From the NCBI RefSeq assembly GCF_001719065.1, contig NZ_LWAF01000002.1:1-64000 (forward strand): DNA of 64,000 nucleotides, read 5' to 3'. Source of the DNA: Fervidobacterium thailandense (lineage in GTDB: Bacteria; Thermotogota; Thermotogae; Thermotogales; Fervidobacteriaceae). Positions within the stretch are counted from its first letter, which is position 1; each line of letters opens with the position of its first letter. Below the pieces are notes generated by a model. That model was not told where the DNA came from. It made no database searches and saw nothing but the letters and a program-made list of their open reading frames with translations. Made by a program: the position numbers and the translations under genes. This document shows, in pieces, positions 4,735-45,633 of this stretch.

Positions 4735-6047
4735 TAGACTGTTCCACGGAATTATGAAAAACCCACCGAATTATTGTATAATTCCTTAAAAAGGGGTACA
4801 CCCCCCTCCACCCCACGAAAGGAGGTATACCCTATGCCAAGAAAACTCAACCTTCCTCAAAGACCTTCATGCCCCTACTGCCATCATCCCAAAGTCTACG
4901 TCAATTCACGCTACTTCCGCCGTGCTCCTGACGGCTCCCTTACCCAGGTCTTCAGCTTCATCTGCCCTAACTGCAAACGCACTTTCTCCTTCCCAAAGGC
5001 CTCTCGCTCACCCAAACCTAACAAGCTCTTCAACTTCTCCTACCCCAGGTGCCCTCACTGCAACACTACCATGGAAATCTACAAAATTCGCTCTTCTTTC
5101 GTCCGTTTCCGCTGCCGCAAATGCAAGTATAAGTCTAACGTTTACTTACTCAAAAACTCCTCTCCTCAAACCAACCCCTTACCTTTCTCCCCAAACTATC
5201 CTCTCTTCATCTGCCTTCTTGCCTTCATCCTCTTCTTCTCTAACCTCTCATTCAGACAAATCAGAAACGTCCTATCTCTCAACGGCTACTCCCCGAGTGT
5301 TTCTACCATCTACCGCTGGATAAAAGCACTCTCTTCTGCCATCAAGTTTACTCCCATCCATTTTGAGGTCCTTTGTGTCGATGAAAAGTTCGAAAAACTC
5401 GCTTCAAAGGGAAAGACCGATACTGTCTATGTCTTCCTTGCCGTTAGCTTCGATAACTACCTGATTGCTAACTTCCGTGTCTCTCTCAACCGTGATACGC
5501 TCCAAGCCATCAAGCTAATATCCCCTTGTCAGCCAAAGCTTGTGCTATCTGATGGATTAACCTCATACGCTCAAGCCTGTGAGTATCTGAACATTTCCCA
5601 CAAAACCATCAGCTCCAGAGTAAATCAAGCGGTAGAATCCAGAAACAGCCTTCTTGCGATGTTCACACAAATCAGAAGAGGGTTCAAGAAGTTATCGAAC
5701 GTGATTGAGTACATCAAAGCATTTGTTGTGCTCCACAACATCAAACGGAAGTTGAGAATGCAAGAGCCAGGAGACTGGGTGAAGATACAAAGACCGCTGG
5801 TGGAGTACCTGGTGAATCATTTTGAAGAGCTATTTGCGTTTGGCTGAGTTGTGGAGTGTGTTGAGTAAATGAAAGTGGAATACAGAAGAAGTCAAGCTGC
5901 GAGAGCAGTAAGGGTGATGTTTTGTTAAAGCTGAGAAAAACAGCGTTTTTGAGAGCCGAAGGATGATTTCAAAGACCGAGATTTTTGTTGAGGACCGAGC
6001 AGTATACCCTTTAATATCGTACCCTAATCATATCGTCGAACAGACTC
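4735..6047 (+). mobile_element. Insertion sequence, copy B (complete)
   Basis: The complete element is 1,313 bp. Left end TAGACTGTTCCACGG matches the reverse complement of the right end, GAGTCTGTTCGACGA, at 12 of 15 positions. It is flanked by 8-bp direct repeats, so insertion was by transposition and is probably fairly recent. It lies between gmd and fcl in the opposite orientation to both. About 1.3 kb of near identity to copy A suggests recent duplication within the locus. Confidence 0.9.
4834..5847 (+). CDS. DDE transposase with N-terminal zinc ribbons (IS copy B)
   Basis: This 337-residue transposase matches copy A except for three substitutions: L to F in the AVSLDN segment, F to S in KLIFPC, and E to K in HNIKREL. 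The zinc-ribbon cysteine pairs and the D, D, E catalytic residues (VDEKF, LSDGLTSY, NQAVES) are all kept. The ATG at 4834 follows the same AAAGGAGGT site. As the element has clean ends and a target duplication, this copy is the better candidate for an active element. It runs antisense to the polysaccharide operon and could interfere with fcl expression. Confidence 0.87.
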   Translation: MPRKLNLPQRPSCPYCHHPKVYVNSRYFRRAPDGSLTQVFSFICPNCKRTFSFPKASRSPKPNKLFNFSYPRCPHCNTTMEIYKIRSSFVRFRCRKCKYKSNVYLLKNSSPQTNPLPFSPNYPLFICLLAFILFFSNLSFRQIRNVLSLNGYSPSVSTIYRWIKALSSAIKFTPIHFEVLCVDEKFEKLASKGKTDTVYVFLAVSFDNYLIANFRVSLNRDTLQAIKLISPCQPKLVLSDGLTSYAQACEYLNISHKTISSRVNQAVESRNSLLAMFTQIRRGFKKLSNVIEYIKAFVVLHNIKRKLRMQEPGDWVKIQRPLVEYLVNHFEELFAFG

Positions 6048-6052
6048 CAATT

Positions 6053-7213
6053 TCATTGGTTTATCCTCTCATTTCTCCATTTCTCTTTTATCGCGAGTTT
6101 TAGGTCATGCTTAACCATGATTCTCACAAGTTCTTCAAACGTCACTTCAGGTTTCCAACCAAGTTTTTCACGAGCTTTTGAAGCATCTCCTACCAACAGT
6201 TCCACTTCTGTTGGTCGAAAGTACCTTGGATCTACCTCTACAACGACATTCCCCGGCTTTAAATGCGAAACGTCTAGTTTATAATTTGCAAGATCAGGAT
6301 GTTGTTTTTGCAGTTCCAGGATCTGCGAAGACAACTTATCAGTATTTACTGATTTTATAACTCCCTTCTCTTCTATCCCTTCGCCCACCCATTCAATCTT
6401 GATACCCAGTTCGAGAAAAGCTCTTTCACAAAATTCTCTGACACTATGCATCTCTCCTGTTGCCAAAACGTAATCATCTGGTTCTGGCTGCTGGAGCATA
6501 AGCCACATACCCCTTACGTAGTCTTTTGCATATCCCCAGTCTCGCTTTGCGTTAAGGTTCCCAAGATACAGTTTTTTCTGCGTTCCAACGAGAATCCTTG
6601 TAGCCGCTCGTGTGATTTTTCTTGTGACAAACGTCTCTCCCCTTCTTTCGGATTCGTGGTTAAAAAGGATTCCGTTGCAAGCAAATATGCCGTAAGCCTC
6701 GCGATAGTTTACAGTTATCCAATAAGCGTACAATTTCGCCACAGCGTACGGACTTCGAGGATAAAATGGTGTAGTTTCTTTTTGAGGAATTTCTTGAACT
6801 TTTCCAAAAAGTTCAGAAGTGCTGGCTTGGTAGAACTTAACCTTTTTTTCCATTCCAAGTAATCTAATCGCTTCTAAAAGTCTAAGCGTTCCAAGTGCAT
6901 CCGCGTTTGCCGTGTATTCGGGAGTTTCGAAAGAAACCTTAACGTGGCTCTGCGCACCGAGGTTATATATTTCATCCGGCTCAATTTCTTTTAAGAGTCT
7001 TATCAAGCTTGTGGAATCTGTCAAATCACCATAATGCAGAAAAAACCTGTCAGTTTCATGCGGATCCCGGTATAAGTGCTCTATTCTGGCGGTGTTAAAA
7101 GACGAGCTTCTTCGGATAATGCCATGAACTTCGTATCCCTTTTCAAGAAGGAATTCGGATAAAAAGCTACCGTCTTGACCTGTGATACCCGTAATTAAGC
7201 ACCTTTTCACCAA
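6053..7213 (-). CDS. gmd: GDP-mannose 4,6-dehydratase
   Basis: The 386-residue extended SDR enzyme converts GDP-D-mannose to GDP-4-keto-6-deoxy-D-mannose, the first step to GDP-L-fucose (or GDP-rhamnose). The NADP-binding motif TGITGQDG is at residues 8-15, the RR pair at 34-35 lies in the cofactor-binding segment, and the catalytic set STSELFG (131-137) plus YAVAK (156-160) is complete. An expanded linker near residues 280-320 makes it slightly longer than the usual 350-375. Its TGA stop codon lies inside the 8-bp target duplication of IS copy B, so the protein is intact although the transcript is interrupted directly downstream. Partner of fcl across the IS. Confidence 0.95.
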
Positions 7214-7224
7214 ATGGCCCTCCC

Positions 7225-8096
7225 CTAATACAAGTCTCTAAGCAGTTCTTCTACCTTGAACTTCTTAAATATGAACTTCGTTTTTAGACTCAGCCATAAC
7301 TTCCACAACATCTTTCCAAAAACCGCTAACCACGGTGGAGAAATTGATACCTCTCTTGCAATTTTGTAGCACTCAAGATTTGCCTTGAGAATATGCATGA
7401 TGTTCTTATTGCTCGTTCCACCAAGGGAAAAAACCGTTAGAAATTCATTGACGTATATAACATTCTCAGCAAGCTGAAAAACAAGCCAAAGAACTTTTAT
7501 ATCAGACGCAATTTTATAAGTAGTATCAAATCCCTGGATTTCATTTAGCCATGTTTTTTTATGAATGTACTTCCGTGTGGTGGATGCCATCCAAATTTTA
7601 ATCTTGCTTTGAGAAATTTCCCTGAGATAAAAAGTCTTTTGACAATTAAGCGTCCTCTCTTTCTTTTTACCATGACTTGATTGCCATAGAGAATGTCTGG
7701 CTTATATTCTATCAAATTTCGTAGAATTAATTCTATCTTTTCTGTGATAAGCACATCTCCTGCTCCTAGTACTAGTACGTATTCCCCATTTGAGATCTTT
7801 AAGCCCTTATTAAGCGCATCGTAAATACCGTTGTCTGGTTCTGAAATAAACTTATCAACGACATTTAAGCCTGCGAAATACTCGATGATCCTTCTTGTGT
7901 TGTCGCTTGAATTTCCGTCAATAACAACACATTCTAAATAGACTCCGTTATTATGGAAGAATTGCTTGGCTTTCATCACACTCTTTAGGGTTTCTGTAAC
8001 CTGTTGTTCGACATTGAAAGTAGGTATTATAACGGAAACCAAAGGACCACGATTTTCAATTTGTGCAATTTTTTGGAAACTCTCAAATTTGTTCAA
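7225..8096 (-). pseudogene. Family 2 glycosyltransferase split by a frameshift at an A7 run
   Basis: The two halves join into one ~290-residue GT-A glycosyltransferase. The 5' frame (TTG start at 8096, GAGG site overlapping the upstream stop) encodes the nucleotide-binding fold: VSVIIPTFNVEQQ, VVIDGNSSDNT and EPDNGIYDALNKG, ending HPPHGSTFIKK then HG and stop. In the next frame the sequence carries on with TWLNEIQGFDTTYKIASD, the expected acceptor-binding part. The switch falls in seven A's (7554-7560 as T on the plus strand); one extra A restores the frame. It may be a real mutation, a sequencing error or transcriptional slippage at the homopolymer. WcaA/WcaE-like enzymes of colanic-acid loci are the closest type I recognise. 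Confidence 0.75.
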
Positions 8097-8097
8097 T

Positions 8098-9336
8098 TTA
8101 CCTCGCCCCTCTTCTCCAAAACAACGCCTCTATCGTTTGAATCAATATGCGTAAATCAAGCAATGTTGAGCGGTTTTTTATGTAATAGAGATCATACTCC
8201 GTTTTTCTCCTGTATTCATCCAAGCTTGTCGTGTGTGAAAAGTTAATCTGAGCCCAGCCGGTGATTCCTGGTTTGAGTTTTAGCCTGTAACTGTAATAAG
8301 GTATATTTTCAGACGACAGTTTGTGATATTCGATCATCTCTGGCCTAGGACCAACAAGGCTCATTTTTCCTTTCAAAACAAGCCAAAACTGCGGTGCTTC
8401 GTCTATCCTTGTTCTTCTAAGAAATTTACCGACAGTGAGAGCTCTTTCTGAAATATTTGAGTTGGGATTTTCGGGATTGTAATTCTCATTCCGCAAGGTT
8501 CGAAGTTTTATGAACTCAAAAGGCTCTCCGTTGCGTCCAATTCGTACCTGCCGAAATATTACAGGTTTTCCGTCCTCAATTAAAATTAATAGCCCAGCTA
8601 CCACTATCAACGGTGCATAAATCACCAATCCAACAACCGCACCAATAACATCAATTATTCTTTTTACCGGTGATTCCGAAACCTTTTCGAACTCAATTTC
8701 ATAGTACTCCCTGAACTTATCAATTAGCTCGAGCGGAATGCGTTTTAGGACTTTTTCGGCTAAGTGTGGGAGGAACTCAACTTGAACTTTATGCTTTCGA
8801 ACAAGCTCTTTCACCGTTTCGTACAATTTGTAATCAGCAACCAATATGTGTGTATGTGTTTCCATCTTTTTGAGTACGACCTCCGGGGATGGGTTGACAA
8901 ACTCTGAAAAAAGATATCTTCCCTGCGATTTTTCCTCTATTTCTCTGATTATATCCTCGGTATCACTCTTTTTTCCAATCACAAGAAACCTTACAGGTTT
9001 TTTCGATCGTCTTTCGATCTTACGGAGAGCAACATTGAGAGCTGGAATGGACGGTAGGAGTGAAACGATGGCGTAAAATGTTCTAAAATAAGGAATTCGG
9101 AATTTAAGCATGGAGAAAAGCGCAGACAGAAATAAGGTTGTTAAAACTGACGATACACCAACTCTGGTTAACTGTTCGTGCAGACTTTCTAAGTGATCCA
9201 CGTCGCAAGTGCGAAATGCAAATATGGAGATTCCAAAAGTGATTCCGTACAATGTGGCCAACAACACCTCGTTTGTAAAGCAGTAGAGAATAAATGCTGC
9301 CAATAATGAGTCAAGAATAATAACAACTGTAGGCAT
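8098..9336 (-). CDS. Polyprenyl-phosphate sugar-1-phosphate transferase (WcaJ/WbaP type)
   Basis: The 412-residue membrane enzyme is expected to load the first sugar phosphate onto undecaprenyl phosphate, starting each polysaccharide repeat unit. The N-terminal part is hydrophobic with about four membrane helices, followed by a CoA-binding-like Rossmann region (FLVIGKKSDTE). After a re-entrant helix (VIGAVVGLVIYAPLIVVAG), the catalytic bacterial sugar transferase domain shows FRQVRIG, FIKLRTL, RRTRIDEAPQF, SLVGPRPEM and KPGITGWAQ. The ATG follows GGGGGG. It ends one base before the start of the glycosyltransferase gene, so the two are coupled. Which sugar is transferred cannot be told. Confidence 0.9.
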   Translation of the reverse strand: MPTVVIILDSLLAAFILYCFTNEVLLATLYGITFGISIFAFRTCDVDHLESLHEQLTRVGVSSVLTTLFLSALFSMLKFRIPYFRTFYAIVSLLPSIPALNVALRKIERRSKKPVRFLVIGKKSDTEDIIREIEEKSQGRYLFSEFVNPSPEVVLKKMETHTHILVADYKLYETVKELVRKHKVQVEFLPHLAEKVLKRIPLELIDKFREYYEIEFEKVSESPVKRIIDVIGAVVGLVIYAPLIVVAGLLILIEDGKPVIFRQVRIGRNGEPFEFIKLRTLRNENYNPENPNSNISERALTVGKFLRRTRIDEAPQFWLVLKGKMSLVGPRPEMIEYHKLSSENIPYYSYRLKLKPGITGWAQINFSHTTSLDEYRRKTEYDLYYIKNRSTLLDLRILIQTIEALFWRRGAR

Positions 9337-34874: not shown

Positions 34875-34914
34875 TCAACATGGATCCGAATCCAGCGTAG
34901 TGTGGGGTGAAAGA

Positions 34915-37900
34915 GTGACGCTGTTTGAAGAACTTGTCTGGTACATAACAATCCCGTTGGTAGCTCTTTTTTCACATAGGAAGTACACTTACGAGTTCAG
35001 CACACCGAAGTACGCCATTCTACTTGCCGGGGTTGTACTTATCTCCGCAATTTTGTTGATGAGATTGTTCAAGAGCGGAAAGCTCCGTTTTGTGTTCACT
35101 CCAGTTCACCTCGCATGGTTGGGATTCTCCATTGCTGGTCTCTTATCAACGTTTAACATTTTGAGGGATAATCCGAGTTTCTTCAGGTTATCGATAGATA
35201 TTGCGTTGTACACGTTCGTGAACGTCCTGCTCTCGTTTTACTTCAGTACGGTCATGAGAGACAAGAAACTTATCACGAGGATGCTTTATGTCTTCATGCT
35301 CACAGGTTTAGTTGTCGCAGTGAACGCCATTTTGAATTTCTACACTGGGTACGATTTGTTTTTAGGGCAGATAGGTGAACCGTTCAAAAGGGCGAGTATC
35401 AAAGCAAACGTTGGAAACGTCATCTTTGTTTCCAACTATCTGAACATGCTACTTCCTATTGCTCTGTACTTCATGTTGACACTCGATCTGGAGTTCTTCG
35501 GAACGCTCAGTTACAAGGGTATTGCGTTCTTCAAGGTATTTTCTTTGGTCTCGGCGGTACTTTACTTTACTGTGATCATCTTTTCACAGACGCGCTCTGA
35601 GTACATCATACTAATTTTGGAGATCGTTTTACTGCTGCTCTTTTACCTGTCGATACGTAAGAAGAATGATTCGCATGCCGAATACCTCAAATCAACGAAC
35701 GCCCAGCTCTTAAGGAAACTGATTCTGTTGCGAAAAGCTTTGATTTTCGTGTTCGTTTCACTGATCGTGGTGGTTGTAGTACTCTACAACGTCCCTTCGC
35801 CGCTCAACAAGTCTGGAGAGTTTTCGATGATCGATCGGTTCAACGCGATGGCATCCGTTTCGGCCAAGGACGAGAGGTTCCTTTCTTGGTTCTCAACATT
35901 TTACATTTGGAAAGACCACAAGTTACTGGGTCAGGGTATCGGCACGTACCAGCTCTACGGACTTTACGGTATTGCAGAGATGATCCGAGAAAAGCCCGAG
36001 TACATGTACGGTTGGAACAACTTTAAGAGGGCACACAACGATTATTTCCAGGTGCTTTCGGAAACCGGAATCATAGGGTTTGGTTTTATTCTCGCAATGC
36101 TGATTTTGTTAAGTATCTACGTGTTCAGAAATATTGGGTTGATTCAGGACAAAGACGATGCGGTGCTCTTTCTCATGCTCGTGTTGAGTGGGGTTGTGTT
36201 TGCCGTTCAGAGTTTTTTCAGTTTTCCTGCACACCTATTACCCAACGCCCTCCTGGCTAACTTTGTCATCAGCACTGGGCTTGGACGGTATTTCAATCGC
36301 ACCCACCTGCGCGAGGTGAAGATTGAAAGAAAAGTTCCGGCTGTTTTGGTTGGTACGGTGCTCTTGGCTGTAATCGTTCTTTCAACGTACCTAAGGTGGA
36401 GCTTTTTTGTTTCGGAAGTGTTCTTCAAACGTGGGAGCGAGGCTTACGAGTACCTAACCACGTACAGATCACTTGAGGAGAAACTTCGCGATTATCTAAA
36501 ACAGTTGGAAACATATCGAAAGCAGCTGGAAGAACTGAGTGGCGAGTTTGAAATATTTAAACCTGATAAATGGCACGAGGAGATGAAAAAGCGTGCTGGA
36601 ATACTTTACAGATACGACGAATACGAAGCGAAGCGACGCTCCGAGATAGAAGATTACCGAGCGAAGTTGGAAAAACAATACGGAACTTTGTTCTCTGAAC
36701 TTACCGCAATGTCGTCGAAAATCTCCGAAAGTTACCGGCGGGCTAAGGACTATTTTCTCAAGAGTGTCCGCGTGTATCCTGCGTACGGAAGGGCGTTGTT
36801 CTACCTGGCCAGCTTGGCAACCGACGAAATCAGGGTTGAGGAGCTACTCGCATCGATCGAATCCCATGCAAACGAAATTCTAAATCAAAATTTCGACGAG
36901 TTGCAGAAGGTCGTGCACCGAAAATATCGACACAACTTACTCGGGTTTCTTGCTCCGCTGGTGGGAGAGTTGAAAAATTATTCGGACGCCGACTCGAGGT
37001 TAAAAAAGCTGGTACAAATACAGGCAATCCTGGATTCAATTTCACTTTACGAGACTTCGTTACTAACGTTCACCGAGCGTAACGCGTTCAAAGGAGTTGC
37101 AACACGCTACATGTTACTGTACAATTACGTTGAGGATCTATCCGAGGTGGTAAACGGAAACCAGGAATTGAGGGAACATTTTTCAAAAGTGTTGAGCGCA
37201 ATAGTTGACAAATTCTGCAAGTGGGTAAGGAATACCGTTTGGTTGATACCCGGGGGTTGGAACAGGTTCCCGGATTGGAAAAACTTGGATGTTGAAGAAG
37301 CATGGAACAACGGGAAGGATATCTACAGATTCTTCGCAAATCAAACTGTTTCAACGTTCGATACGAAGGATCCACGGATTTCAAAACTGCTGTTCGATCT
37401 GGCAAGTCTCGAGTCAAAGGCGTGCTATTATATGGAGCAGAAAGGTGTTTGGGGTGTACCCGACGGGGTTTTACCGTACCTGTACGCACTCGAGCGTAAA
37501 GGCGAGTTGGATTCGAACTTCACCGTCCGGCAATTAAGGGAGTTGTACGAGGCAAACTACCGCGTAGCTCAAAAGAAACTTGATGACGAGTTACTGAGGA
37601 AGCGATTCTCTAATCTTCTCACCAACGCTACGGAAAATACGGCAAAGATTCTTGAGGTGCTCGAGGTTTCGGAAGGATTGAGAAGAACTTTTCAGGAGGA
37701 TCTCCAGAGCGCGCTTTCGGAGGCGTTTGGAAAGTTTACAAATTACGATTTTCGGAAGGTCGTTTCCGATTACTTCAAGACATTGCTTGAGACTGACAGA
37801 AAGGACTGGCCGTACGTTACGATAAAGAGTATCTGGGCCGATATTGCGCTCACGAGCTTCGAAAGTTTCATCTCCGACATTACGAGGTACGCAGAATCTG

Positions 37901-38025
37901 AAGACGACAAAGAACTCATCGCACAGCTTTCTAAAAGCATATCCAACGATAATTCGATGCTGATGTTCGAAAGATACGATCTGTTCAAGGCTCTATACGA
38001 AACGGTTTTTGGATGGGAAGAATAG
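34915..38025 (+). CDS. O-antigen ligase/polymerase-like protein with large C-terminal domain
   Basis: The 1,036-residue protein has an N-terminal membrane half (about ten helices to residue 500) with the Wzy_C/WaaL features: a long loop containing DERFLSWFSTFYIWKDHKLLGQGIGTY and RAHNDYFQVLSETGIIGF. These enzymes join or polymerise glycans from polyprenyl carriers on the outer face of the inner membrane. After the last helix (VLLAVIVLSTYLRW) a coiled-coil segment (LEEKLRDYLKQLETYRKQLEEL) and a helical region with a TPR-like start (YPAYGRALFYLASLA) run for about 520 residues, unusual for the family. GTG 34915 follows GGGGTGA; a GTG at 34900 is also in frame. Confidence 0.8.
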   Translation: MTLFEELVWYITIPLVALFSHRKYTYEFSTPKYAILLAGVVLISAILLMRLFKSGKLRFVFTPVHLAWLGFSIAGLLSTFNILRDNPSFFRLSIDIALYTFVNVLLSFYFSTVMRDKKLITRMLYVFMLTGLVVAVNAILNFYTGYDLFLGQIGEPFKRASIKANVGNVIFVSNYLNMLLPIALYFMLTLDLEFFGTLSYKGIAFFKVFSLVSAVLYFTVIIFSQTRSEYIILILEIVLLLLFYLSIRKKNDSHAEYLKSTNAQLLRKLILLRKALIFVFVSLIVVVVVLYNVPSPLNKSGEFSMIDRFNAMASVSAKDERFLSWFSTFYIWKDHKLLGQGIGTYQLYGLYGIAEMIREKPEYMYGWNNFKRAHNDYFQVLSETGIIGFGFILAMLILLSIYVFRNIGLIQDKDDAVLFLMLVLSGVVFAVQSFFSFPAHLLPNALLANFVISTGLGRYFNRTHLREVKIERKVPAVLVGTVLLAVIVLSTYLRWSFFVSEVFFKRGSEAYEYLTTYRSLEEKLRDYLKQLETYRKQLEELSGEFEIFKPDKWHEEMKKRAGILYRYDEYEAKRRSEIEDYRAKLEKQYGTLFSELTAMSSKISESYRRAKDYFLKSVRVYPAYGRALFYLASLATDEIRVEELLASIESHANEILNQNFDELQKVVHRKYRHNLLGFLAPLVGELKNYSDADSRLKKLVQIQAILDSISLYETSLLTFTERNAFKGVATRYMLLYNYVEDLSEVVNGNQELREHFSKVLSAIVDKFCKWVRNTVWLIPGGWNRFPDWKNLDVEEAWNNGKDIYRFFANQTVSTFDTKDPRISKLLFDLASLESKACYYMEQKGVWGVPDGVLPYLYALERKGELDSNFTVRQLRELYEANYRVAQKKLDDELLRKRFSNLLTNATENTAKILEVLEVSEGLRRTFQEDLQSALSEAFGKFTNYDFRKVVSDYFKTLLETDRKDWPYVTIKSIWADIALTSFESFISDITRYAESEDDKELIAQLSKSISNDNSMLMFERYDLFKALYETVFGWEE

Positions 38026-38569: not shown

Positions 38570-38614
38570 CGGATCTTAACTGTTGGATTCGTGGTGGAGG
38601 AGGAATTTTCCTTA

Positions 38615-39670
38615 ATGGATACGAAAAAAGAAAGGTTCGAGTTTCAGGAAGATGTTGAACGCATCGTTTCACCTGAGCGAACAACTTTCGATACTTATTT
38701 GCTCAGGCCAAAGTTCCTCGACGAGTACATCGGGCAGGAGAACATCAAGGAGCGGTTGAGGTTGGCCATTAAAGCGGCCAAGATGCGCGGGGAGCAACTT
38801 GATCACATCCTCCTCGCGGGGCCTCCGGGACTTGGAAAGACGACGTTGGCCGGTGTTATAGCCAACGAGATGAACGCCAACATCCACATCACGAGTGGGC
38901 CGGTGCTGGAAAAACAAGGCGATTTGGCGGCCATCCTGACGAACCTGGAACGCGGGGACGTGTTGTTTATAGACGAGATACACAGGATGAACAGGAACGT
39001 GGAGGAAATCTTGTATTCTGCGATGGAGGATTTTCAGATAGATATCATGATTGGCAAAGGACCAGCTGCAAGGTCTATCCGCGTGGAACTCCAACCGTTC
39101 ACACTCATCGGAGCCACAACGCGTAGCGGTCTGCTTACCTCTCCACTCCGCAACAGATTCGGCATGATCCTCGAGATGAGCTTCTACACCGAAGAAGAGC
39201 TTAAGTTGATAATCCAGAGGGCGGCGGACGTTCTGGGTACCGCCATCGAGGAACGGGCTGCCCAGCTGATCGCAAAAAGGTCGCGTGGGACCCCGAGGAT
39301 CGCGATTAGGTTGCTCAAGCGCGTCAGAGACTTGAGCACGATCAAACACCAACGCATCATCGACGAGGCAACGGTTGAAGAAGTGATGAGTTTGCTCGGT
39401 ATTGACGAATACGGTCTGGATGAGATGGATCGAAGACTTCTACGTATTATCGTGGAAGTTTACAACGGTGGACCGGTTGGCTTAAAAGCGTTAGCCGCAT
39501 CCCTCGGTGTAACTGAAGATACGATTTCCGAAGTCTACGAGCCTTTCCTTGTCCAGAGCGGGTTTATAGCGAGGACTGCGAGGGGTAGGGTGGCAACCGA
39601 GAAGACCTACAAATACTTCGGGATACAGCGCGGATTCGGAGGGTTGTTCGATGGCGTACTCGATAGATGA
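38615..39670 (+). CDS. ruvB: Holliday junction branch-migration ATPase RuvB
   Basis: The 351-residue AAA+ motor drives branch migration with RuvA. Walker A GPPGLGKT is at residues 69-76, Walker [11 protein letters not shown], sensor 1 GATTRSG and arginine finger region PLRNRFG follow; the C-terminal winged helix ends with [16 protein letters not shown]. The ATG at 38615 is preferred because GGAGGAGG lies 10 bases upstream, while the in-frame GTG at 38591 has none. Its last 20 bases overlap yggS. ruvA and ruvC are not in the window. Confidence 0.96.
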
Positions 39671-42249: not shown

Positions 42250-42288
42250 AAAATCATCCATCAGCACTCGAGTTGGGGGAGGCGAACT

Positions 42289-45200
42289 TTGAAGACGCTG
42301 ACCAGGTACGTTTTAAAACTCTCGTTGAAACCTTTTCTCATGGGACTTGCCGGTTTCATCGTCTTTGTAAGTGTCGAATGGCTCTACCAAATTTCCGATT
42401 ACATCATACGCAACAGGGTTGGTATAAAGACCCTTTTTCTGTTCATCCTGTACAACCTTCCGTATTTTACGTTCCTCGGAATCCCGGTCGGCGTGCTCTT
42501 CGCCATATTTTGGGTCATCAGCGACTTGTACAACAACCGTGAGATTACGGCACTCTTGGTTCACGGTGTGCCGTCCAAGAAGCTCGTCACACCGTTCGTG
42601 ATACTTTCAATTGTCCTGGGGTTCGTAAGCTGGTTACTGGGTGATTACGTCGTACCTGTGGCGAACTACAAGTCTTCGCAAATACTGTACAACTACATCT
42701 TCCAATCACCGGAAGCTGTGGTCAAAACTAACACCCTCGTGGAGCTCGAACGGGACGTCTACTTTTACGTTAAGGAGTACGACAAGGAAAAAGGTGAACT
42801 TTACGACGTGGTACTTTTCAGGAACGAAGAGGGGAATGAACAGATACTGACTTCCAAGAAGGTACTGAAGAAAAAAGACGGCTGGTACCTGCTCGACGGT
42901 AATATGTACATTGTTGAACTCGAAAGCGGTTTTCTGAAACTTGAGATGCAGTTCAAAGAAATGAAGCTTGACGTCGCTGGTGAGATAGAGCAGATGCTGA
43001 AGACATCAAAAACAGTTCGCGATAAGACCTCAAAGGAACTTCGAGAACAGTTGATGACTTACAAAAAGTTGGGGATTAACACGAGTAACTTGGTTGTTGA
43101 GCTTCAACAGAGGTACGCAAACGCGGTTGGTGCGTTCGTGATCGTACTCATAGGTCTTCCTGTGTCGCTACTTTTCGGTTTCAAGAGTAGATCCTGGGGC
43201 GTTATCACAACGTTCGTCATCATCGTGCTCTACCAAGGTTCCGGTGCTTGGCTCTCGGGACTTGGGAAGGAGGGTATGATGGATCCCGTGCTTGCCGTTT
43301 GGTTACCAAACATCGTATTCGCGTCCATGGGTCTTGTCATGTACATCCTCGTCGATACACCCGTGGCCTTTAGGATTAGAGAATTTCTCACCAGATTATT
43401 CGTAATACTCGTTTTTGTAGCTATACTCGGTGGTCAAACCGTCGTGTACGGACGCAGTGTGAACGTGACAGCCAACGAAATTCTGTTGAAAGAAAACCAG
43501 GCTGTTCTTTCGGGAAGCGTGAAAATCACATGGGATAAGTACCGGCTCGAAACCGATGTGGCAACCGCAACGTTGCTTGACGGTAAGGTAAAACTCATCG
43601 AAGCGAGTGGTAACGCCGTCTTTACGTTCGACGATCAAAAGTACATCGCGAAATACGTGTCGTACGAGTTCGAAACGGAGAGGCCACTGGTGTTGAACGC
43701 CAAAACGGTCTACAAGTACGATTATCAGGGACGTAAGGTTCCAATCTACGCCTACAGTGCGAAGATAGAGTACGATAAGAACACCGAAACCTCAGAGCTT
43801 CTGGACTCTTACGTCACAACGTGCGACTTTGAAGAACCACACTACAAGGTTGTTGCGGCGCGTATCACCGTGCTCGAAAATAAGTATATCATCGCACAAA
43901 ACGCTTTCCTGTTTGTGCTTGGTGTTCCGCTCTTCCCCTATCCCATTTTCGTAACCGCCTTGGAGGGTAAGCCACCGTACGCTTTCTCAGTAGTCTTCGG
44001 AAACAAACTGGGTGTGAACCATTCTTTCGCCTTCAAAGTTGACCCTTGGGCAGTGGAACTTGAGCTGAATTCGTCCGGTGCCGTTGAGTTCAACGCACGT
44101 GATACCACGCAAGGGAGTAAAAATCGCGTGGTTTATTCGGACAGTAAAAAGGTGTTCGAGTTCACACTCGTGCCTTTAACTTACCGACACGTCTTGAACA
44201 CCGGTGCAACGTATTTTAAGATTGAGGGCCCCACCTATTTTGAAGGAAACTACGTTTCGGATACGAACTTCCAGTATAAAGCTGGTTTTAACTTCTCGTC
44301 ACCGGATGGCCGGCTCTACATGTCCCCTTCTTTGACATACAATGGAACGGCGAAAAACTCGACGTTGGTACTTTCGGGTGGTTTGAAAAGTTTAAGTTTT
44401 CCGTTGCCACTGGAAAATAGCTTAAGTATTTCAAGTATCGACCTTTCTCTGATTGCTCGAACAGAAGGATATCCCAGCCTCGTTGGCAAGGAATGGACCA
44501 CATCACTCCAGAACACGTACAATCTCTCGCTTTCAAACAAGTCGTTCAACGTTAGCAGTAGCCTCCAGGGAAGGATCGTCGACGGAAACCTGAACCAGAC
44601 GTTTTCCTACACTTACCAACTACCTTGGAACCAAACGATCGGTCCGTTCTCGCTGGCGTTCCAGTACACGTTCTCCATGAGAAACACGCTAAATGTTGTA
44701 GGCGATAAACGGGCAGAATTGTTCGCACTGACGGATCGCTACGTTGCTGAGGCACGGTACTCGTTCGGACCACTCTCAATCTCGGCGAAATGGACGCAAG
44801 CTTACGCGTTTCTGGAAGAACCGCAGACCACCAACACGAACACGATTTCCGGAACATTGGCGTTCAACACTCCAACAGTCAGTTTGTCGGTTACTCGCGG
44901 TTGGGATGTACTCAAGGGCACACCATCTCCGGAGACCTATGCCTTAAAGTTTAGTCCCGACATCGGACCTGTTAATTTAAGTGCCTCGATGAATTTTAAT
45001 TACGATCCGAAGGCGGGAAAAATAGGTCCACAGAACATCTCTGCCAGCGCGAGTTGGAAGGAGATTCAAACCTCTTACAGTCTCAACTACGTCCTCACAC
45101 CGGGTGTGTTCCCAAGCCAAATAGTTCACACTCTCAAATACACAACCTTTACACTTACCGTTACTCAGCGTCAGGAGTTCATCTCGAGTGTTGTGGGAAC

Positions 45201-45633
45201 GGGAAGTTTTACACTATTTGACTACAAGAACACGGTGAACCTTACGTACTCGCAAACCTCCAAAGATACACCTGGTTCGCTAAGGGGAACGTACACGGTT
45301 GAGAAACCGGGAGAAAAGTACTCGCTTTCGTACAACGTGGGTGGTAAAGACCTCCTCACATTGGGAGTCGAACTGAAGAACATCGATCCTCAAGTTTCGG
45401 TCAGTCTGTCGTACAACCTTGCAACGAACTTACCACAGACACTGAAACTGACGCTCGATAAATCCCTCCATTGTTGGCGTGCAACGTTCGGATTGGATCT
45501 TTCTTACAAGACTTACGGTGGATTACTCGATTATATCGATAAAGTCTTCATAAAGTTCTACTTGACCGATATACCCGACCGTTACTTCCAGTACGACTCC
45601 GAGCTCGGAATGTTCCAAGTTGGTGGTATGTAG
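42289..45633 (+). CDS. LptF/LptG permease fused to OstA/LptD-like domains
   Basis: This 1,114-residue protein joins parts of the LPS export machine that are normally separate. Residues 1-355 are an LptF/G permease: three helices, a periplasmic jellyroll (about 140-230) and three more helices. Residue 370-388 is a seventh helix ending GGQTVVYG, like a signal peptide. After it comes an OstA (LptA-like) domain (VNVTANEILLKENQAVLSGSV, about 390-560), then a long beta-rich part resembling the LptD barrel up to residue 1,114. A TTG start follows GGGGGAGG. In proteobacteria LptFG sits in the inner and LptD in the outer membrane, so cleavage after residue 388 seems likely (inference). Neighbouring WecA-like and ligase-like genes suit a glycolipid export role. 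Confidence 0.75.
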   Translation: MKTLTRYVLKLSLKPFLMGLAGFIVFVSVEWLYQISDYIIRNRVGIKTLFLFILYNLPYFTFLGIPVGVLFAIFWVISDLYNNREITALLVHGVPSKKLVTPFVILSIVLGFVSWLLGDYVVPVANYKSSQILYNYIFQSPEAVVKTNTLVELERDVYFYVKEYDKEKGELYDVVLFRNEEGNEQILTSKKVLKKKDGWYLLDGNMYIVELESGFLKLEMQFKEMKLDVAGEIEQMLKTSKTVRDKTSKELREQLMTYKKLGINTSNLVVELQQRYANAVGAFVIVLIGLPVSLLFGFKSRSWGVITTFVIIVLYQGSGAWLSGLGKEGMMDPVLAVWLPNIVFASMGLVMYILVDTPVAFRIREFLTRLFVILVFVAILGGQTVVYGRSVNVTANEILLKENQAVLSGSVKITWDKYRLETDVATATLLDGKVKLIEASGNAVFTFDDQKYIAKYVSYEFETERPLVLNAKTVYKYDYQGRKVPIYAYSAKIEYDKNTETSELLDSYVTTCDFEEPHYKVVAARITVLENKYIIAQNAFLFVLGVPLFPYPIFVTALEGKPPYAFSVVFGNKLGVNHSFAFKVDPWAVELELNSSGAVEFNARDTTQGSKNRVVYSDSKKVFEFTLVPLTYRHVLNTGATYFKIEGPTYFEGNYVSDTNFQYKAGFNFSSPDGRLYMSPSLTYNGTAKNSTLVLSGGLKSLSFPLPLENSLSISSIDLSLIARTEGYPSLVGKEWTTSLQNTYNLSLSNKSFNVSSSLQGRIVDGNLNQTFSYTYQLPWNQTIGPFSLAFQYTFSMRNTLNVVGDKRAELFALTDRYVAEARYSFGPLSISAKWTQAYAFLEEPQTTNTNTISGTLAFNTPTVSLSVTRGWDVLKGTPSPETYALKFSPDIGPVNLSASMNFNYDPKAGKIGPQNISASASWKEIQTSYSLNYVLTPGVFPSQIVHTLKYTTFTLTVTQRQEFISSVVGTGSFTLFDYKNTVNLTYSQTSKDTPGSLRGTYTVEKPGEKYSLSYNVGGKDLLTLGVELKNIDPQVSVSLSYNLATNLPQTLKLTLDKSLHCWRATFGLDLSYKTYGGLLDYIDKVFIKFYLTDIPDRYFQYDSELGMFQVGGM

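Follow-up and report, generated by a model that had tools for sequence, protein, structure and literature searches.

Fusion of an LptF/G permease with LptD in one Thermotogota gene: a probable polyprotein with an internal signal peptide

How does one open frame come to hold a permease of the inner membrane together with a gate of the outer membrane, and does its product remain a single chain? Both questions are raised by an lptFG-lptD fusion gene (42289..45633, + strand) in the window analyzed here, the whole stretch of 64,000 nucleotides from Fervidobacterium thailandense. The gene is a single open frame of 1114 amino acids with a TTG start, and a strong ribosome-binding site, GGGGGAGG (42275..42282, + strand), can be read in the sequence 6 bases 5' of that start. 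A sister genome, assembled separately, carries the frame uninterrupted as well (84% identity). Upstream neighbours are NAD kinase and PhoU; the downstream ones, assigned by eye from the sequence, we take to be tilS and ftsH. As listed, the tilS-like frame begins inside the fusion gene and shares its final 14 bases (45620-45633). A ruvB gene is located at 38591-39670 of the window, and fusions of the second phylum described below also occur close to ruvB (L211, L212).

We consider it probable (about 0.8) that the gene encodes a polyprotein, composed of an LptF/G permease, an internal Sec signal peptide and a complete LptD, which is cut by signal peptidase I and belongs to a pathway for a non-lipid-A glycolipid. 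A first-pass annotation had described a permease, a signal-peptide-like segment, an OstA-like domain and an LptD-like barrel in one Thermotogota polypeptide, and Pfam matches, profile comparison and the fold predicted by AlphaFold2 agree with this architecture.

Domain composition of the fusion protein

The LptF/G permease domain spans residues 6-352 (42304..43344, + strand). PF03739 (LptF_LptG) covers this range with an E-value of 7e-69 (233 bits against a cut-off of 27.9), and PDB matches to LptF/LptG point to the same assignment. In the AlphaFold2 secondary structure, six transmembrane helices are seen, with a periplasmic beta domain at approximately residues 149-227 between helices 3 and 4, in line with the six-helix LptF/G-type permease that had been proposed from the sequence. 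E85 (codon 42541..42543, + strand) is invariant in alignment A1 and lines up with the glutamate in the coupling helices of P. aeruginosa LptF and of another, solved LptG. The NCBIfam equivalogs for LptF and LptG score 129 and 113.5 bits, under their cut-offs of 230 and 240. Judged from its sequence, the permease is thus of the LptF/G type and neither LptF nor LptG specifically. It is the single LptF/G copy in the genome.

The second half starts with a beta-jellyroll (residues 391 to ~557; 43459..43959, + strand), recognized by Pfam LptD_N/OstA, by the strands of the AlphaFold2 model and by profile match. The search for the OstA-like domain suggested earlier gave PF03968 (LptD_N/OstA) at residues 396-529 with an E-value of 2e-6 (28.3 bits against a cut-off of 20.4). 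An LptD-like beta-barrel region follows (residues 564-1112; 43978..45624, + strand), based on the AlphaFold2 model and PDB fold matches. At the transition from jellyroll to barrel lies the signature block YVTTCDFEEPHY...VPLFPYPIF (43810..43962, + strand), with invariant C512, Y519, P547 and P552, which aligns with its counterpart in N. gonorrhoeae LptD. Profile A2, built from 28 relatives, finds solved LptD structures, 7omm (N. gonorrhoeae) with an E-value of 2e-5 and 8h1r with 7e-5, and the 7omm match passes through the jellyroll and on into the junction block TTC...PHY...VPxFYxP that leads to the barrel. NCBIfam LptD models match five and six of the 28 members, at best with 6e-11. The AlphaFold2 model of residues 387-1114 (pLDDT 86.6, pTM 0.51) comprises a jellyroll from residue 391 and then a barrel-like beta region. 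The top 15 PDB fold matches of this model are without exception LptD (E-values from 1e-18 to 8e-13 over ~800 columns), with TM-scores of only ~0.3.

The window protein contains two cysteines only. C512 in the N-domain (codon 43822..43824, + strand) is present in 30 out of 30 fusions, and C1062 in the LHCW motif at the C-terminal end of the barrel (codon 45472..45474, + strand) in 25, being missing in the other five relatives. In E. coli LptD, disulfides join the N-domain and the C-terminal region of the barrel. By analogy, C512 and C1062 would form a disulfide that ties the jellyroll to the barrel. The protein itself ends in ...FQVGGM, and not in aromatic residues as first described; the phenylalanine is the last residue in most relatives.

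Another outer-membrane barrel or porin that merely bears an OstA domain would account for a Pfam porin match at residues 747-930 (below threshold), for the low TM-scores and for the silence of the Pfam LptD barrel model. This model, PF04453, failed as a check on the barrel, with no detection in any of 22 genomes; among the controls it finds E. coli and Caulobacter only. It is therefore the profile, the fold and the cysteines that identify the region as LptD. Such another barrel is quite unlikely nonetheless, given the LptD-specific junction block and cysteines, the NCBIfam LptD matches in relatives and the best fold matches, which are all LptD. Profile, fold and cysteines equally exclude that the C-terminal part lacks OstA or LptD similarity, the outcome that would have overturned the initial description. 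As profile, NCBIfam and fold matches and the two cysteines concur, LptD, and not merely an OstA-like protein, is the best assignment for the C-terminal half at the level of sequence and predicted structure.

Distribution and history of the fusion

LptF/G is found in 100 out of 103 Thermotogota genomes, in 89 of these 100 within an open frame 900 amino acids or more in length. The exceptions to the long frame are mostly due to contig ends or frameshifts. Some short frames that appeared to be fissions were rejected for this reason: one is a contig end (G097) and two are frameshifts (G044, G041). In a wider sample of 390 genomes, LptF/G proteins mostly measure 350-570 or 600-900 amino acids, and several of the latter class are LptF-LptG tandems. 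Outside the two phyla considered here, frames of 780-860 amino acids occur as well (L213, L215), of which at least L213 (genome G320) is a one-frame LptF-LptG tandem. Two single-copy genomes of a second phylum (G202, G340) have LptF/G frames of 985-998 amino acids. A survey of that phylum retrieved LptF/G in 91 out of 100 genomes, 76 of these 91 with frames of at least 950 amino acids. Of the fused proteins examined from this phylum, only two fail to match the C-terminal profile of Thermotogota (down to 1e-44 in the others), and both still have the TTC motif.

It can hardly be entertained that an assembly or sequencing artefact joins two genes. The window genome is in 55 contigs, which would leave room for such an error, but an identical architecture recurs in dozens of independent assemblies, some of them complete. 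This survey of many genomes excludes the frameshift or assembly error against which the first-pass annotation had cautioned.

In a tree of the LptF/G domain, obtained by a quick search and containing some long outside branches, every fusion falls in one clade (SH-aLRT 97), and unfused members are nested inside this clade or within their own phylum. Three cases of separate genes were found. In genome G005, an LptD of 849 amino acids is encoded elsewhere (L203:6753-9302), and it starts with a signal peptide at the equivalent point. At L096, an LptF/G gene (387 amino acids) ends 4 bases before an 848-amino-acid LptD (5939-8485) that also has an N-terminal signal peptide. The third case is family f233 of the second phylum, where LptF/G and LptD occupy two adjoining genes. 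The homologue survey called for at the outset thus recovered the fusion in 89/100 and 76/91 genomes, along with three later fissions, and the four changes are most simply explained as one fusion and three fissions on the basis of these sequences. From the three splits it follows that LptD can do without being joined covalently to the permease and that the seventh hydrophobic segment of the fusion protein sits at the position of a signal peptide. A fusion common to two phyla is a rare marker of either common ancestry or transfer.

Genome G005 differs from its relatives in two more respects. It has two tandem LptF/G genes and a 603-amino-acid protein resembling three OstA repeats (L045:8410-10743 and L155:8294-10105). 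From sequence, it looks as if a heterodimer had replaced the homodimer and a longer bridge had evolved.

The junction and the fate of the chain

Seven hydrophobic segments are seen by hydropathy in the window protein, as in 29 aligned relatives. The seventh (residues 361-389; 43369..43455, + strand), delimited by hydropathy, junction motifs and pLDDT, corresponds to the internal signal-peptide-like segment noticed earlier, which hydropathy places at ~361-389. It has a basic n-region (FRIREFLTRLF), a hydrophobic core and a candidate signal-peptidase site between VYG and RS, after residue 388. AlphaFold2 models a helix at residues 358-379 and gives a pLDDT below 50 at 374-388, a stretch predicted to be disordered. 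The linker from the segment to the jellyroll counts ~10 residues. In the second phylum, junctions read GFAQD, SAFAQD, PVRAQE and GMAQE, and GFAQD and PVRAQE, for instance, are textbook sites. Strict AxA-type sites follow the seventh segment in 15 out of 20 proteins of this phylum, compared to 21 out of 60 control helix ends (p 0.002). In Thermotogota they do so in 14 out of 30, compared to 12 out of 90 controls (p 0.0003), and some of the 14 sites fall within the jellyroll. The separation achieved by this strict rule is modest. The window's own candidate site is weaker and not a strict AxA site. A looser signal-peptidase rule does not separate the seventh segment from the other helices (22/30, against 30/30 for helix 5).

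Two proteins might alternatively arise from an internal translation start just before the signal peptide. Indeed, the segment resembles the N-terminus of a secreted protein, and the unfused relatives begin there. This is very unlikely, as a ribosome site plus start was found at the junction in 0 out of 30 fusions, against 19 out of 30 at assigned gene starts. With an internal ribosome site lacking in all 30 fusions, the two halves have to be made as parts of a single translated chain.

That chain could also stay uncleaved, with the seventh segment as a membrane anchor and the permease covalently tied to the outer-membrane barrel. The occurrence of a single open frame in most members of both phyla would fit such a trans-envelope chain. 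A precedent exists in Veillonella parvula MlaD, a polypeptide that unites an inner-membrane part with a barrel predicted for the outer membrane and is proposed to bridge the envelope as one chain, albeit in the MCE family and with an unrelated fold and direction (PMC10665443). We regard this outcome as improbable. The ~10 residues between segment and jellyroll would have to span the ~50 nm that separate the toga of T. maritima from the inner membrane (PMC3387000), and the jellyroll edge meant to receive LptA would lie hidden against the inner membrane. Moreover, three lineages have split the gene and provide LptD with its own signal peptide or start, and a separate LptA/C-like bridge protein is retained. 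It is likewise rather unlikely that the chain is partly uncut, with a covalent link between pump and gate at local envelope junctions, or that regulated cutting times the formation of the export bridge. The first-pass annotation had offered both a single chain across the two membranes and cleavage at the internal segment. Its architecture stands, the short linker speaks against the single chain, and the signal peptides of unfused relatives, the motif enrichment and the geometry favour the alternative of cleavage.

Given these signal peptides, the AxA enrichment, the lack of an internal start and the short linker, cleavage by signal peptidase I is most likely. In the polyprotein reading, the permease would insert with its C-terminus in the cytoplasm, and the seventh segment would then cross from the inner to the outer face as a signal peptide, with signal peptidase I cutting directly after it. 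The freed LptD would be passed to BAM and fold in the outer membrane. The permease, as the sole LptF/G in the genome, would pair with itself and with an LptB dimer, and an LptA/LptC-like protein would form the bridge to LptD. A comparable arrangement is FbcH, the cytochrome b/c1 polyprotein of Bradyrhizobium, in which a polytopic membrane protein, an internal signal peptide and a secreted partner are joined and cut by signal peptidase. FbcH differs from the fusion in that it belongs to a respiratory complex of which both products remain at the inner membrane.

Partners, cargo and known Lpt systems

LptB scores over its cut-off in 22 out of 22 genomes; the copy of the window genome (G000:C2:83081-83785) adjoins an OmpH/Skp-like gene. 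An OstA protein of 225 amino acids with an N-terminal signal peptide (L154:8705-9382, - strand) matches LptA/LptD_N models and, weakly, LptC models. One such protein was found and not two, and since it matches both kinds of models, it may serve as both LptA and LptC. Omp85 is present in 20 out of 21 genomes. LpxC was found in 0 out of 21 Thermotogota genomes by a search that was positive in four control genomes, which accords with the earlier expectation that Thermotogota do not make classical LPS. Because LpxC is absent, the Thermotogota Lpt cargo is probably a glycolipid and not classical lipopolysaccharide. Approximately 4 kb upstream of the fusion gene (34900-38025, + strand), a 1041-amino-acid protein combines an O-antigen ligase domain (Wzy_C, E-value 2e-16) with a long C-terminal extension; in this LpxC-less genome, it is possibly linked to a surface glycan or to the cargo.

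With the proteobacterial system (LptB2FGC-LptA-LptDE), the Thermotogota proteins share LptF/G with its coupling glutamate, LptB, an OstA-fold bridge and the jellyroll, barrel and interdomain cysteines of LptD. Here, in contrast, permease and LptD are one gene, one LptF/G and one LptA/C-like protein are found where proteobacteria have two LptF/G proteins and a distinct LptA and LptC, and LpxC is lacking. Borrelia burgdorferi (BB0464-BB0466, BB0807, BB0808, BB0838) similarly has a complete Lpt pathway without LPS, but with separate LptF, LptG and LptD genes and an LptD without cysteines (PMC10353723). In that study (PMC10353723), glycolipids are the proposed cargo of Lpt where diderms have no LPS, with Thermotoga maritima named among them. 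The proposal fits the Thermotogota Lpt system without LpxC. The Lpt cluster of diderm Firmicutes has a single LptF/G homologue and OstA-domain proteins too, yet these bacteria make LPS, and neither an LptD nor a fusion is reported for them (PMC5007114).

Lpt orthologues of T. maritima are already noted in the passage of PMC10353723 that cites Putker et al. 2015. No description of an LptF/G-LptD fusion was found in the literature searched. Against that literature, the Lpt parts are familiar, and what is new is the gene architecture and, probably, the polyprotein processing. According to a 2022 survey, lptD is absent from atypical diderms and Thermotogae are without nearly all outer-membrane genes besides bamA (PMC8871954); the fusion supplies the LptD that such surveys missed. 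A phylum that lacks LpxC retains a near-complete Lpt pathway together with its outer-membrane gate, which turns the nature of an Lpt cargo without LPS into a testable question in cultured Thermotoga. An internal signal peptide that directs one of the two halves of a polyprotein to a different membrane would, moreover, be an unusual route to equal amounts of two parts.
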